DNA of 64,000 bases from Bacteroidales bacterium (GTDB lineage Bacteria; Bacteroidota; Bacteroidia; Bacteroidales; Lentimicrobiaceae), in contig JAEUTG010000029.1 in the NCBI GenBank assembly GCA_016788045.1, positions 62,001 through 126,000 on the forward strand, written 5' to 3'. The position numbers were made by a program, and so were the translations under genes. Below the pieces are notes generated by a model, which was not told where the DNA came from, ran no database searches, and saw nothing but the letters and a program-made list of their open reading frames with translations. Below, piece by piece: positions 10,778 through 60,341 of the stretch; positions within the stretch are counted from its first letter, which is position 1; each line of letters begins with the position of its first letter.

Positions 10778-13012
10778 GTTGGTGGCGGGGTCGGATGTTG
10801 GCAGAATTCACGATACGAATGGGAGATTCGACCCCGGCGGGGTCGAATGTTTATAGAATAACGAGAATGGTAAGGCCTACGACCCCAGCGGGGTCGCATG
10901 TTTATAGAAATGGCGATTTCAGATTGGATTCCGACCCCGGCGGGGTCGAATGAAAAATGACAGCACCGGGAATTAAATTTTTTCTTCGGGGCGAGGAATT
11001 CAGAACCAAATTACAGGGGGAATGTACGACCCCGCTGGGGTCGGGAATTTCTATCTTGTTCATGTTTTCTATAAACATATGACTCCTCCGGAGTCAGGCA
11101 TCCAGGTGCCGCATTCGTTTTTGCCCCCCCCCCTGAGGGATCAGATGTTTATAGATTATCAGGAATGGTAAAGATATCGACCCCAGCGGGGTCGCATGTT
11201 CATAGAAATGGCGATTTCAGATTGGATTCCGACCCTGGCGGGGTCGAATGAAAAATGACAGCACCGGGAATTAATTTTTTCATTTCGGGGAGCGGAATTC
11301 TGAACCAAATTACAGGGGGAATGTACGACCCCGCTGGGGTCGGGAATATCTATCCTGTTCATTTTTTCAATAAACATATGACTCCTCCGGAGTCGGGCAT
11401 ACAGGTGCCGCATTCGTATTTGCCCCCCTGCGGGGTCAGATGTTAATAGAATATCGGGAATGGTTATGATATCGAACCCAGCGGGGTCACATGTTTATAG
11501 CAATGGCGATTCCAGATTGGTTTGCGACCCCGCCGGGGTCGAATGTAAATGACAAACCGGGAATTATATTTTTTATTTCGGCCGCGGAATTCAGAACCAA
11601 ATTGCAGGGGGAATGTACGACCTCGCTGGGGTCGGGAATTTCTATCCTGTTCATGTTTTCTATAAACATATGACTCTTCCGGAGTCAGGCATCCAGGTGC
11701 CGCATTCGTATTTGCCCCCCTGCGGGGCCAGGTGTTAATAGAATATCGGGAATGGTAAGGATATCGAACCCAGCGGAGTCGCATGTTTATAGCAATGGCG
11801 ATTCCAGATTGGTTTGCGACCCTGGCGGGGTCGAATGTAAAATGACAGCACCGGGAATTAAATTTTTTCTTCGGGGCGCGGAATTCAGAACCATATTGCA
11901 GGGGGAATATACGACCCCGCTGGGGTCGGGAAATTCTATCCTGTTCATGTTTTCTATAAACATATGACTCCTCCGGAGTCGGGCATACAGGTGCCGCATT
12001 CGTTTTTGCCCCCCTGCGGGGTCAGATGTTAATAGAATATCGGGAATGGTTATGATATCGAACCCAGCGGGGTCACATGTTTATAGCAACGGCGATTCCA
12101 GATTGGTTTGCGACCCCGCCGGGGTCGAATGTAAATGACAAACCGGGAATTATATTTTTTATTTCGGCCGCGGAATTCAGAACCAAATTGCAGGGGGAAT
12201 ATACGACCCCGCGGGGGTCGGGAAATTCTATCCTGTTCATGTTTTCTATAAACATATGACTCCTTCGGAGTCGGGCATACAGGTACCGCATTCGTTTTTT
12301 CCCCCTTGCGGGGTCAGATGTTTATAGATTATCGGGAATGGTAAGGATATCGACCCCAGCGGGGTCACATGTTTATAGCAATGGCGATTTCAGATTGGTT
12401 TCCGACCCCGGATGGGTCGAATGTAAAATGACAGCACCGGGAATTAAATTTTTTCTTCGTGGCGAGGAATTCAGAATCAAATTGCAGGGGGAATGTACGA
12501 CCCCGCGGGGGTCGGGAAATTCTATCCTGTTCATGTTTTCTATAAACATATGACTCCTCCGGAGTCGGGCATCCAGGTGCCGCATTCGTTTTTGCCCCCC
12601 TGCGGGATCAGATGTTTATAGATTATCGGGAATGGTAAGGATATCGACCCCGCCGGGGTCACATGTTTATAGCAATGGCGATTTCAGATTGGTTCCCGAC
12701 CCCGCCGGGGTCGAATGTAAATGACAAACCGGGAATTATTTTTTTTATTTCGGCCGAGGAATTCAGAATCAAATTGCAGGGGGAATGTACGACCCCGCTG
12801 GGGTCGGGAATATCTATCCTGTTCATGTTTTCTATAAACATATGACTCCTCCGGAGTCAGGTATCCAGTTGCCGCATTCGTTTTTGCCCCCCTGCCGGGT
12901 CAGATGTTAATAGAATATCGGGAGTGGTAATGATATCGACCCCAGCGGGGTCGCATATTTATATAAATGGCGATTCCAGATTGGTTCCCGACCCCGGCGG
13001 GGTCGAATGCTT
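10778..13012. repeat. Hairpin tandem array A (about 293-bp units, no transposase)
   Basis: A non-coding array of seven complete units and partial units at both ends. Units start with the first palindrome at 10880, 11178, 11473, 11765, 12059, 12351, 12645 and 12937 (periods 292-298). In unit 1 the palindromes lie at 10880 (P1, followed by CATGTTTATAG), 10932 (P2), 11027 (P3) and 11081 (P4, preceded by TTCTATAAACAT). P1-P3 have GACCCC/GGGGTC arms and P4 has GACTCC/GGAGTC arms around a ~3-nt loop. A fifth half-palindrome (GCCCCCCTGCGGGGTCAGATG type) lies about 50 nt after P4. Two spacer variants alternate from 11473, giving an exact 586-bp higher-order period. Short open frames cross it on both strands but are by-products of the repeats. 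It has the same layout as array B at 57706-60177. Confidence 0.9.
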
Positions 13013-18477: not shown

Positions 18478-18534
18478 CAAAGTTCTTTTGAACTTTTAAT
18501 TCCTAAAACTCTAATTATTCATACTTCCTATCTC

Positions 18535-18597
18535 TGACCTCCGACCTCCGACCTCCGACTTCCGACCTCCGACTTCTGACCTCCGACTTCTGACCTC
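18535..18597. repeat. Heptanucleotide tandem repeat, 9 units
   Basis: Nine uninterrupted copies of YGACYTC (variants CGACCTC, CGACTTC, TGACCTC). The variants are interspersed rather than random. It lies 33 nt before the -7 box of the GH2 gene. Confidence 0.85.
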
Positions 18598-18629
18598 CGT
18601 TTTCCGTTTGCCATATCCTCGCGAATCAC

Positions 18630-56928: not shown

Positions 56929-57477
56929 ATGAAAAGAATCCTGGTTGTTTGTCTGGCAGTGTTGCCGGTTTTGGTTTTTAATTCATGCGGAAACAAAAAG
57001 GGGGAGATACTTACCCAAAGGATACAGTATGATGTTCCGGTGAAAACACCGGAAACTGATCTGGGCTGGTGGGTTCAGAACCTCGAAGGCCCGAAGCGTG
57101 AAAAGCTGGTGCAGGCCATTTTCACTTCAGCCAAAGCAGGAAAAGTGAAAATCTTCGATGTGATGTCGAACAAGCAGATGACACTGGAGCAGTTGCAGGA
57201 GCGGAGTGTACGCACCGAACTGCTTACCCTGCAGCGTCCTTATGCTCCATACGAAAACTTCGATACCATTGTGAAAAGGGAAATTCAGCTTTCTGATGTT
57301 TCGCGGCTCAGGTTTCTGGAAGAGTGGTACCTCAATGAAGAAACCGGGCTGATCACCAAAAAGGTTATTGCCGTTTGTCCCCTGGTTGAAAGCTATACCG
57401 AAACCGGTGAACTCAGGGGCTACAATCCGCTGTTCTGGCTCTCTTTCGCCAAAAAGTTTCCGTTGGAAGCGAAGTAG
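56929..57477 (+). CDS. Lipoprotein with weak GldN-like C-terminus
   Basis: A 182-aa lipoprotein: signal sequence to VFNSC with lipid Cys, then GNKKGE. The mature part is mixed alpha/beta. LRFLEEWYLNEETGLITKKVIAVCPL followed by GYNPLFWLSF recalls the end of the gliding/secretion protein GldN/PorN, which also has a deduced WYFD...IGIAPL...PLFW pattern. The resemblance is from memory and short; the protein could be unrelated. It is the last gene before hairpin array B. Confidence 0.55.
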   Translation: MKRILVVCLAVLPVLVFNSCGNKKGEILTQRIQYDVPVKTPETDLGWWVQNLEGPKREKLVQAIFTSAKAGKVKIFDVMSNKQMTLEQLQERSVRTELLTLQRPYAPYENFDTIVKREIQLSDVSRLRFLEEWYLNEETGLITKKVIAVCPLVESYTETGELRGYNPLFWLSFAKKFPLEAK

Positions 57478-58663
57478 GTAGATCATGACCTTTTTTCCAA
57501 GAAATTGGTCGGAGCCCCAATAGCACTGACATTCAGAGTTGAAGTCCTGAATCCGGACGAATTAATCAAAATGATAGATTGAATTTGTAATATTGAGCTT
57601 AATATGCTTAGTCATGGGCCAACCAAAAGAAATTCGATATTTTGCTGAGGCAGGTGTTCTGGCGGGTGAAATTGCTTTACCCGTTAAAGATATTTGATAA
57701 ACATTCGACCCCTCCGGGGTCGGAGCCTTATCCGATATGGTTATTTCAATAAATATATGACCCCTCCGGGGTCAGGCCAGGATTTCCGGGGTTGCGTTAT
57801 TAATTAAGAGCCTCTTTCGGGTTAAACGAACATTTTTAAGAACAATGATTTTGACTCCGGAGGAGTCAAATGTTTATAGAAGACATGAATGTAATAGAAA
57901 TGTGCGACCCCGGAGGGGTCGAATGTTGCCTGGATTCAATTTTCATTTTCCATGAAGATCGAAAAAGCTTTGAAGCAAATTCTTCTTTTCCATTGACATG
58001 CGACCCCTCTGGGGTCAGAGACCTGATTGTTATTTTAAGTTCTATAAGCATTTGACCCCTCTGGGGTCAGGTTGGCCTTTGTAAAATTGATTTTGATTAA
58101 ATAGCACATTTAGGTTAATCGAATATGCTCAACAAAAAGGATTTTGACTCCAGCGGAGTCATATGTTTTTGAAAAGCACGAATGTGGAAGAAATGTGCAA
58201 CCTCAGATGGGTCGAATGATACCTGCATTCAATTTTCCTTTTCAATTAAAACCAAAATAGCTCAAAAGCATATTTTTCCATACAATGAACATGCGACCCC
58301 TCTGGGGTCGGAGACCTGATTGTTATTTTAAGTTCTATAAGCATTTGACCCTTACGGGGTCGGGATAGTATTGTTGAGGTTAGTTATTTTTAAGTGCAAC
58401 ATTGGGATAACCGATTTTTTTTCAGAGCAGGGATTTGACTCCAGCGGAGTCAAATGTTTGTAGAAAAGCCCGAATGTGGAAGAAATGTGCGACCCCGGAG
58501 GGGTCGAATGTTTTCCCGGTGTCACATGTAATCCAATGCCCAATGTCAATCAATTAATCAATGATATACGTTCATTATTCTTCAAATGTTGTATCTTTCA
58601 GAATTATCAGAATTATGTTTCAGAAACTTCCCGTTATTTTTTCATTTATTAAAAATCATTATT

Positions 58664-59122
58664 ATGGCTGATACTTATTCGCAGATCTACATTCAAACCG
58701 TTTTTGCTGCGCAAAACCGGAATGCCCTGATTGGCATTTCCTGGGAAGAAGAATTATTCAAATATATCACTGGAATTGTGCAAAACAAGGGGCAAAAGAT
58801 GTTATCAATTAATGGAACCGCTGATCACATTCATTTTTTCATCGGAATGAAACCTTCGTGTTGCTTATCCGATCTGGTTCGTGAAATCAAAAAGTCATCA
58901 TCCTCTTTCGTTAAAGATAAAGGATTCTGTAAAAGCCGGTTTTCCTGGCAGGAAGGCTTTGGTGCTTTTTCTTATAGCTATTCACAGCTTAACGATGTGA
59001 TAAAGTATATAGAGAATCAAAAGCAGCACCATGCGAAAGTTGTTTTTAAGGAAGAATATCTATCCTTTCTGAATGCATTTGAGATTGAGTTTAAGAATGA
59101 TTATTTGTTTGAATGGATTTGA
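58664..59122 (+). CDS. IS200/RAYT-like single-tyrosine HUH transposase
   Basis: An intact 152-aa Y1 transposase that cuts and joins single-stranded DNA at hairpin ends. The HUH metal motif is H55-I-H57 in GTADHIHFFIG; the catalytic tyrosine is Y115 in VIKYIENQ with Gln119 four residues later, as in IS200/IS605 TnpA; FSWQEGFGAFSYS is a family signature. The frame opens at 58586, but MADTYSQIY at 58664 is the family start. No TnpB accompanies it. It replaces the ordinary 96-bp interior of a unit of array B, so those hairpins are its probable recognition ends. Whether it is better called IS200-like or REP-associated cannot be settled by eye. Confidence 0.9.
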   Translation: MADTYSQIYIQTVFAAQNRNALIGISWEEELFKYITGIVQNKGQKMLSINGTADHIHFFIGMKPSCCLSDLVREIKKSSSSFVKDKGFCKSRFSWQEGFGAFSYSYSQLNDVIKYIENQKQHHAKVVFKEEYLSFLNAFEIEFKNDYLFEWI

Positions 59123-59324
59123 TGAGATTTTGTGCCTTGAGGTGAATTTCACAGAACCTTTTAAAAACATAAAGCAACATACGACCCCGCTGGGGTCGGG
59201 GACCTGTTTGTCATTATCAATTCTATAAACATTTGACCCCTCCGGGGTCAGGATAGCCTTTCAGAGAATGTTTTTTAATTAAATGTCACATCCGGTAAAA
59301 CGAATGTTTTGAAATAGGGATTTT

Positions 59325-59340
59325 AACACCTTTGGAGTCA
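59325..59340. repeat. Scar-like single palindrome in array B (first)
   Basis: AACACCTTTGGAGTC is preceded by the sequence that normally leads into P1 and followed by AGGATGGCC, which normally follows P4. A whole P1-P4 unit is missing here. Confidence 0.6.
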
Positions 59341-60003
59341 GGATGGCCTTTCTGAGATTGATTTTGATTAAATAGCACATTTGGGTTAATCGAATATTTT
59401 CAACAACAAGGATTTTGACCCAGGAGGGGTCAAATGTTTATAGAGAACCTAGATATGACAGAAGTGTGCGACCCCTGATGGGTCGAATGTTACCTGCATT
59501 CAATTTTCCGTTTCAATTAAAGCCAAAATAGCTCAAAAGCATATTTTTTCCATACAATGGACATGCGACCCCTCTGGGGTCGGAGACCAGATTGTTATTG
59601 ATAATTCTATAAACATTTGACCCTTCCGGGTTCAGGTTGGCCTTTGTAAAATTGATTTTGATTAAATAGCACATTTGGGTTAATCGAATATTTTCAACAA
59701 CAAGGATTTTGACTCCAGCGGAGTCAAATGTTTTTAGAAAAGCACGAATGTGGAAGAAATGTGCAACCTCGGATGGGTCGAATGATACCTGCATTCAATT
59801 TTCCTTGTCAATTAAAACCAAAATAGCTCAAAAGCATATTTTTCCCATACAATGGACATGCGACCCCTTCTGGGGTCGGAGACATGATTGCTATTGTTAA
59901 TTCTATAAACATTTGACCCCTCCGGGGTCAGGATAGCCTTTCTGAGAATGCTTTTTGATAAAATGTCACATCCGGTAAAACGAATGTTTTGAAATAGGGA
60001 TTT

Positions 60004-60019
60004 TAACACCTTTGGAGTC
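60004..60019. repeat. Scar-like single palindrome in array B (second)
   Basis: The same junction as at 59325, within a ~680-bp segment that is duplicated (59182-59497 and 59861-60177), so it may be a copy of one event. Confidence 0.6.
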
Positions 60020-60341
60020 AGGATGGCCTTTATGAGATTGATTGCGATTAAATGCTGCAAACGGGTTAATCGAACATTTTCAAGAACTTTTATTTCGACT
60101 CCGGAGGAGTCAAATGTTTGTTGAAATACCCGAATGTTGAAAAAAAAGTGCGACCCCGGCGGGGTCGAATGATTGTTAAATTTCTTCACACATCAGTTGA
60201 ATCGGGCTTAGCCGATATCAGGTCCCAACCAGAATTATTCCGGCATTCTATTGCGTAGATGAAATCGCAGGGGAAATAGACTCACCTAAATCCTGAAACA
60301 GGTCATTTGTTCTCGTAAACTTTCCGGGCCTGATTTTTCAC

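Follow-up and report, generated by a model that had tools for sequence, protein, structure and literature searches.

A probable REPtron-like partnership between a subclass 1.2 Y1 transposase and dispersed hairpin doublets in Bacteroidota

Introduction

Few bacterial repeats are as common as REP-type elements, and the spread of these elements by TnpA-REP enzymes is hard to prove. Such spread is known mostly from Proteobacteria and Cyanobacteria, with palindromes that carry a GTAG tag. In the insertion sequence IS608, the LE and RE hairpins point the same way, and each has a 5' foot. Guide sequences have been described elsewhere (PMC8266576), and the pattern recognized for TnpA-REP enzymes and their REPs comprises one gene, many gene-less hairpins, enzyme-matched specificity, and variable presence (PMC2817692, PMC8266576). 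Subclass 1.2 of the TnpA-Y1 enzymes was reported from Bacteroidetes and Cyanobacteria, and its entry for REP in the published survey is "no" (Quentin 2018, PMC6006769).

Here we describe a subclass 1.2 gene embedded in hairpin arrays in a 64-kb stretch of a Bacteroidales genome (the window, to which all coordinates refer). We consider it probable that the locus belongs to a REPtron-like system in Bacteroidota, in which a resident Y1 transposase of this subclass would mobilize or amplify hairpin doublets.

The transposase gene and its class

58664..59122, plus strand: Y1/HUH single-tyrosine transposase gene, supported by Pfam, alignment, profile, structure, and selection evidence

The reading frame is open from position 58586, and the ORF at 58586-59122 (plus strand) matches Pfam Y1_Tnp with an E-value of 2.8e-22. 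Homologues support a start at Met 58664, which together with the stop at 59122 yields a product of 152 aa. When aligned with 28 relatives, H55-x-H57, W95Q96, Y115, Q119, and H122H123 are invariant; residues 55-57 form the HUH motif, and the catalytic Tyr 115 lies within YIENQKQHH. A profile search of the PDB recovered ISDra2 TnpA (6e-11) and IS608 TnpA (5e-7), and phmmer with the single sequence gave no PDB match. The AlphaFold2 model of the 152-aa protein (pLDDT 86) includes C-terminal helices, and its closest Foldseek matches are the IS608 and ISDra2 TnpA-DNA complexes, followed by the REP-bound TnpA-REP structure 4er8. Comparison of the gene with its homologue in genome G198 gave a pS of 0.86 versus a pN of 0.12, which points to strong purifying selection.

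The signature YxxxQxxHH (Y---Q--HH) plus HUH is that of TnpA-Y1 subclass 1.2, and further traits of that subclass are present: a core of ~150 aa with a short C-terminal domain, the YIxNQxxHH form of the signature, a host in Bacteroidota, low copy number, and several divergent paralogues per genome with low identity to one another. The RAYT (TnpA-REP) motif Y---NP(L/V)(R/K)xG is absent, and the NCBIfam RAYT model REP_Tyr_transpos scores only 21.9 bits, far under its cut-off of 80. There are 11 Y1-type genes in the source genome. Paralogue identities are 34-52%, and no second high-identity copy of the array transposase gene was found in that genome. Because the next Y1 is only 52% identical, the array transposase is, judged from the genome sequence, not a multicopy IS.

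Hairpin arrays around the gene

The first-pass annotation of this DNA had described an intact Y1 HUH transposase with hairpins on both sides, and that description is upheld. The window contains 40 copies of the palindrome GACYCC-NNN-GGRGTC, compared with 0-1 per shuffle in 30 first-order shuffles. Genome-wide (4.7 Mb) there are 88 copies, and the reversed-pattern control gave 0; the true number may be higher because arrays break the assembly, which makes this count a minimum, as seen where contigs C8, C19, C57, and C46 of G000 begin or end inside arrays. Further copies reside on other contigs, several of them at contig ends (L108, L109, L247). The arrays and their boundaries in the window are as follows.

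57697..58513: array to the left of the gene, made of three units of four hairpins (A B .. b a)
59175..60173: array to the right of the gene, with three more units, partly degenerate, with an internal 680-nt duplication
57687..57722, plus strand: left arm of the outer inverted repeat, 36 nt, 86% complementary to 60151-60186; bounds the array and gene
60151..60186, minus strand: right arm of the outer inverted repeat, 36 nt, outermost hairpins
10784..13009: another array of this family, 7.4 x 292 nt with 90% matches, between two genes

The array at 10784-13009, which the first-pass annotation did not list, contains no transposase gene. Around the gene, direct-repeat spacings of 293, 293, and 294 nt confirm a unit of ~292 nt that is present three times on each side, with hairpins ordered P1-52-P2-94-P3-53-P4-96. 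The spacing had been called constant at first pass. The regularity is imperfect, with the duplication on the right and several degenerate hairpins (e.g., near 58199, 58347, 59321, and 59618). Separately, a short 7/14-bp tandem repeat (CTCCGAC) lies at 18532-18599. Gene-less array sites (L090, L091, L093, L094, L102-L105, and the array at 10784-13009) are mostly located between convergent genes, as judged by the longest flanking ORFs.

Once oriented by the foot, the hairpins fall into two types: A, with a closing C-G pair, and B, with a closing T-A pair. A and B share the same orientation, lie 51-53 nt apart, and carry ACAT one nucleotide 5' of each stem. Stems are perfect and 6-8 bp long, and loops are 3 nt. 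The doublets flanking the gene are listed here with the positions of their hairpins.

57700..57775, plus strand: doublet, A 57707, B 57759, spacing 52 nt
57852..57927, minus strand: inverted doublet, B 57853, A 57906; two hairpins folded, z -6.0
57995..58070, plus strand: doublet, A 58002, B 58054
58145..58220, minus strand: inverted doublet, B 58146, A near 58199 degenerate
58288..58368, plus strand: doublet, A 58295, B near 58347 degenerate
58436..58513, minus strand: inverted doublet, B 58437, A 58491
59176..59250, plus strand: doublet, A 59183, B 59235
59416..59490, minus strand: inverted doublet, B 59417 GACCCAGGAGGGGTC, A 59470
59560..59635, plus strand: doublet, A 59567, B near 59618 degenerate
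59710..59785, minus strand: inverted doublet, B 59711, A degenerate
59855..59930, plus strand: doublet, A 59862, B 59915
60096..60173, minus strand: inverted doublet, B 60097, A 60152

This layout invites comparison with an ordinary IS200/IS605 element whose subterminal hairpins were duplicated and whose decayed ends (MITE/PATE-like LE/RE remnants) would be the scattered doublets. The enzyme has the catalytic fold of IS608 and ISDra2, with HUH, Tyr, and the Y...Q motif, and it scores 56.8 against a cut-off of 55 with the NCBIfam IS200 model. Moreover, two same-orientation hairpins with a 5' foot constitute the arrangement of IS200/IS605 LE and RE, and the direct doublet is closer to it than to inverted REPs. 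Elements of this kind move as a gene together with its ends and exist in near-identical copies; subclass 1.1 IS average 4.8 copies at 99.4% identity (PMC6006769). In contrast, the system described here has a single gene copy, whose next relative is the 52% paralogue, for 88 hairpins, many of them gene-less. Its hairpins are repeated on both sides of the gene rather than one per end, and the protein has a C-terminal Q--HH extension. An origin of the doublets as decayed IS ends is therefore unlikely, and a resident enzyme with many hairpin partners is the reading that we favor.

A direct doublet as the dispersed unit

A profile was built from sites in four congeneric genomes, 22 in all, including a few that are orthologous between species. 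Its A part reads AACATNC-GACCCCnnnGGGGTC-G followed by ~20 variable nucleotides, and its B part reads TTTCTATAAACATNT-GACYCCnnnGGRGTC-A; the letters C-A-T served to orient the copies and are biased upward in this profile, and TTTCTATA and the stems are unaffected. The 22 sites have only the doublet in common, with information in the flanks at the background level of ~0.1-0.4 bit. When one doublet site was used as a BLAST query, dozens of other sites were recovered, and the alignments stop at the doublet edges. Because both the matches and the information content end there, the dispersed unit is evidently a direct doublet of ~75-80 bp and not the four-hairpin block of ~292 bp that had been taken as the basic unit at first pass. 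That block consists of two doublets in mutually inverted orientation.

The idea that the four-hairpin block itself transposes, which was the original proposal, has the regular 292-294-nt spacing of both window arrays in its favor, as well as single, isolated units of four hairpins at L091 in G198 and at L096/L101 in G198/G201. However, doublets also occur alone (L097/L099, L092, L213, L215), they adopt another order (b a ... A B) in L096/L101, and similarity between sites does not extend past their edges. We therefore give this proposal little credence and retain the doublet as the putative mobile unit.

When folded as single-stranded DNA, the minus strand of the doublet region at 57844-57930 forms two separate hairpins (z -6.0). 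An Rfam scan of the hairpins returned no family at threshold, and the sub-threshold matches, all to miRNAs, were regarded as chance. Intrinsic terminators were considered and rejected, as there is no T-run 3' of the hairpins. An unrelated second dispersed repeat (CACAAAAGCACAAAAAAACACC-like) was noticed in L097 around 1392-1450, and it recurs in G201 and G204.

Hairpins accompany and co-diverge with the enzyme

Homologous loci were taken from the best 80 of a GTDB scan, which included Draconibacterium, Lacihabitans, Flavobacterium, Chitinophagaceae, and some Ignavibacteria, and the 55 loci with full flanks were used. Repeated palindromes are present within 800 bp of the gene at 28 of these 55 loci and in none of the 55 distal windows located 2.4-3.2 kb from the gene (Fisher 7e-11); about half of the loci have no repeated palindrome under this strict criterion. 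Lack of association with REP-like elements is among the published traits of subclass 1.2, whereas a large part of the subclass has hairpin partners here. These partners contradict the published description of the subclass, not the sequence-based assignment of the transposase. Across the homologous loci, the spacing of neighboring hairpins peaks at 52 nt, and 230 of 320 stems are CC-closed.

Protein distance correlates with hairpin-arm distance (Mantel r=0.38, p<=0.0005; none of 2000 permutations was as high). Nearly all of the closest homologues (63-78% identity; order- and genus-level genomes) are flanked by doublets whose arms are related but altered, such as GACCTC, GATGCC, AATCCC, and TATCCC. 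The layout of A, spacer, TTTCTATAAACAT, and B is kept across genera while the B arms vary, and further clades carry a CTACC-type variant in place of TTTCTATAAACAT before hairpin B. In G073, G054, and G168, the arms of dispersed copies equal those beside the resident Y1. Distant Y1 paralogues within one genome are accompanied by different hairpins.

Other Y1 loci of the source genome also have palindromes of their own. At L002, L003, and L008 these are CCGTCCC/AATCCC/TGTGCC; ACAGGGC; and CCCGGGGC. L002, where hairpins CCGTCCC/AATCCC are found, is the paralogue with 52% identity to the array transposase. Two genes of the Y-NP class (L010, L011) have unrelated palindromes, CGCGTC and CAAGTC.

Among the 198 genomes of the order, CTAYAAACAT plus a hairpin was found in 19, and control matches were zero. 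A check for co-occurrence had been suggested at first pass, and its outcome is positive: the motif is present in 7 of 11 genomes with a Y1 of >=60% identity and in 12 of 187 others (p=6e-6). The specific association and the co-divergence are consistent with the earlier proposal that the hairpins are non-autonomous partners of an IS200-type Y1 enzyme. No viral contig searched carries both motif and hairpin, and a plasmid search returned distant Y1 relatives only.

Presence, absence, and turnover

In congeners that show both neighbors of the locus (the gene at 56929 and the M16 peptidase gene), these genes are adjacent, 55-643 bp apart, and neither hairpins nor a Y1 gene is found between them. 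The Y1 gene and array are at another location in G198 (L061, L095). Hairpin totals are 98 in G198, 41 in G201, and 43 in G204. These three genomes have some old doublet sites in common, and elsewhere orthologous copy numbers differ (7, 2 or more, and 15 hairpins). A search for a base-precise empty site, using concatenated flanks against 19 congeners, found none; the clearest candidate, L091 in G198 versus G201/G204, differs by ~740 nt and not by one doublet.

One site exists in three states, with flanks that are 91-96% identical. The G198 site (L095) holds the Y1 gene with GACYCC arrays, its counterpart in G204 (L113) retains six hairpins from which the gene is gone, and that in G201 (L112, C93) holds a different Y1 (48%) among GGTGCAGCGCACC repeats. 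These states suggest that one enzyme/hairpin cassette was replaced by another. Arrays in many genomes that lack a related Y1 had been named at first pass as an observation that would refute a partnership. This applies in part: arrays or doublets without a close Y1 do exist in G201, G204, G065, and G094. Gene loss or replacement would explain those in G201 and G204. The doublets dispersed in G065 (L233-L237) and G094 (L228-L232) have an CTATAAACAT motif and no close Y1 homologue; they may be orphan families, or the gene may be missing from the assembly.

That the hairpins are passive palindromic repeats (products of slippage or recombination, or terminator or REP-like host elements) in or beside which a transposase landed by chance is very unlikely, since the intergenic position of the arrays, often between convergent genes, their variable tandem copy number, and the genomes with arrays but no close Y1 are outweighed by an association seen again and again, at dozens of loci unrelated to one another, and in no distal window, by arms that co-diverge with the protein, by different hairpins at paralogous Y1 genes of one genome, and by the lack of both a T-run and an Rfam family.

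Relationship to known systems

The partnership of enzyme and doublets resembles the TnpA-REP/RAYT systems with REPs or REPINs of E. coli, Stenotrophomonas, and Pseudomonas. In both cases, a single resident Y1 gene is flanked by perfect palindromes with a 5' tetranucleotide foot that are dispersed between genes and co-diverge with it, and the arrays described here are reminiscent of BIMEs. However, this enzyme has no Y-NP motif, its hairpins carry an ACAT-N foot rather than GT[AG]G, and its host phylum is Bacteroidota. The unit consists of two hairpins in direct orientation with a spacing of 52 nt rather than two inverted REPs, and inversion occurs only between doublets. The REPIN label of the first-pass annotation, which in the strict sense denotes a pair of inverted REPs with GTAG tags together with a RAYT of the Y-NP type, thus does not fit, and the system is neither REPIN nor RAYT by definition. 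TnpA-Y1 subclass 2.6, which is known from Bacteroidetes with "atypical secondary structures," likewise has flanking atypical hairpins copied elsewhere in the genome, but it is a different subclass with a Y-NP motif, and the Y-NP genes of this genome have unrelated hairpins.

Our best reading is a REPtron-like system built on a subclass 1.2 enzyme, which works like TnpA-REP systems without being a member. The name is chosen because one gene, many gene-less hairpins, enzyme-matched specificity, and variable presence recur here as in TnpA-REP/REP. Anatomy, gene association, co-divergence, sharp-edged dispersal, and polymorphism in presence and copy number are direct observations. By the proposed mechanism, a resident IS200/IS605-type Y1, single copy at this specificity, would recognize single-stranded hairpins, with the ACAT foot as a guide by analogy with IS608 and TnpA-REP. 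Similarly, nicking may occur within the conserved TTTCTATAAACAT that lies between the hairpins, or close to it. Doublets of ~75-80 bp would be mobilized or amplified by the enzyme and would accumulate, both in inverted pairs of ~292 bp and in tandem arrays. The enzyme may also build the arrays, but slippage or recombination alone may account for their tandem growth independently of it.

Implications

A literature search for hairpin partners of subclass 1.2, and for these hairpins or REPs in Bacteroidetes, found nothing relevant, with subscription literature partly outside its scope, and such partners are therefore provisionally new. The published classification (PMC6006769) has no REP for the subclass, and the first-pass suggestion of a class undescribed in Bacteroidetes stands within the literature searched.

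We lean modestly toward a broader interpretation, in which subclass 1.2 enzymes are IS200-like transposases that were domesticated independently, for a second time, as part of REPtron-like systems across Bacteroidota. ACAT would be its tag and the fixed 52-nt direct doublet its substrate, B hairpins would be enzyme-specific, and a genome could host several mutually exclusive doublet/enzyme pairs; this slight preference applies to these features jointly.

What we see looks like a resident enzyme spreading tiny non-coding elements, with mobilization by the enzyme read from sequence patterns. It would add another Y1 branch to those with one gene and many hairpins. The tag of this branch is different and the geometry of its doublets is rigid, and the published survey listed no REP for subclass 1.2 in this phylum. 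The variable B hairpin versus the constant ACAT provides a natural mutational series for how Y1 enzymes choose their hairpins and cut sites.
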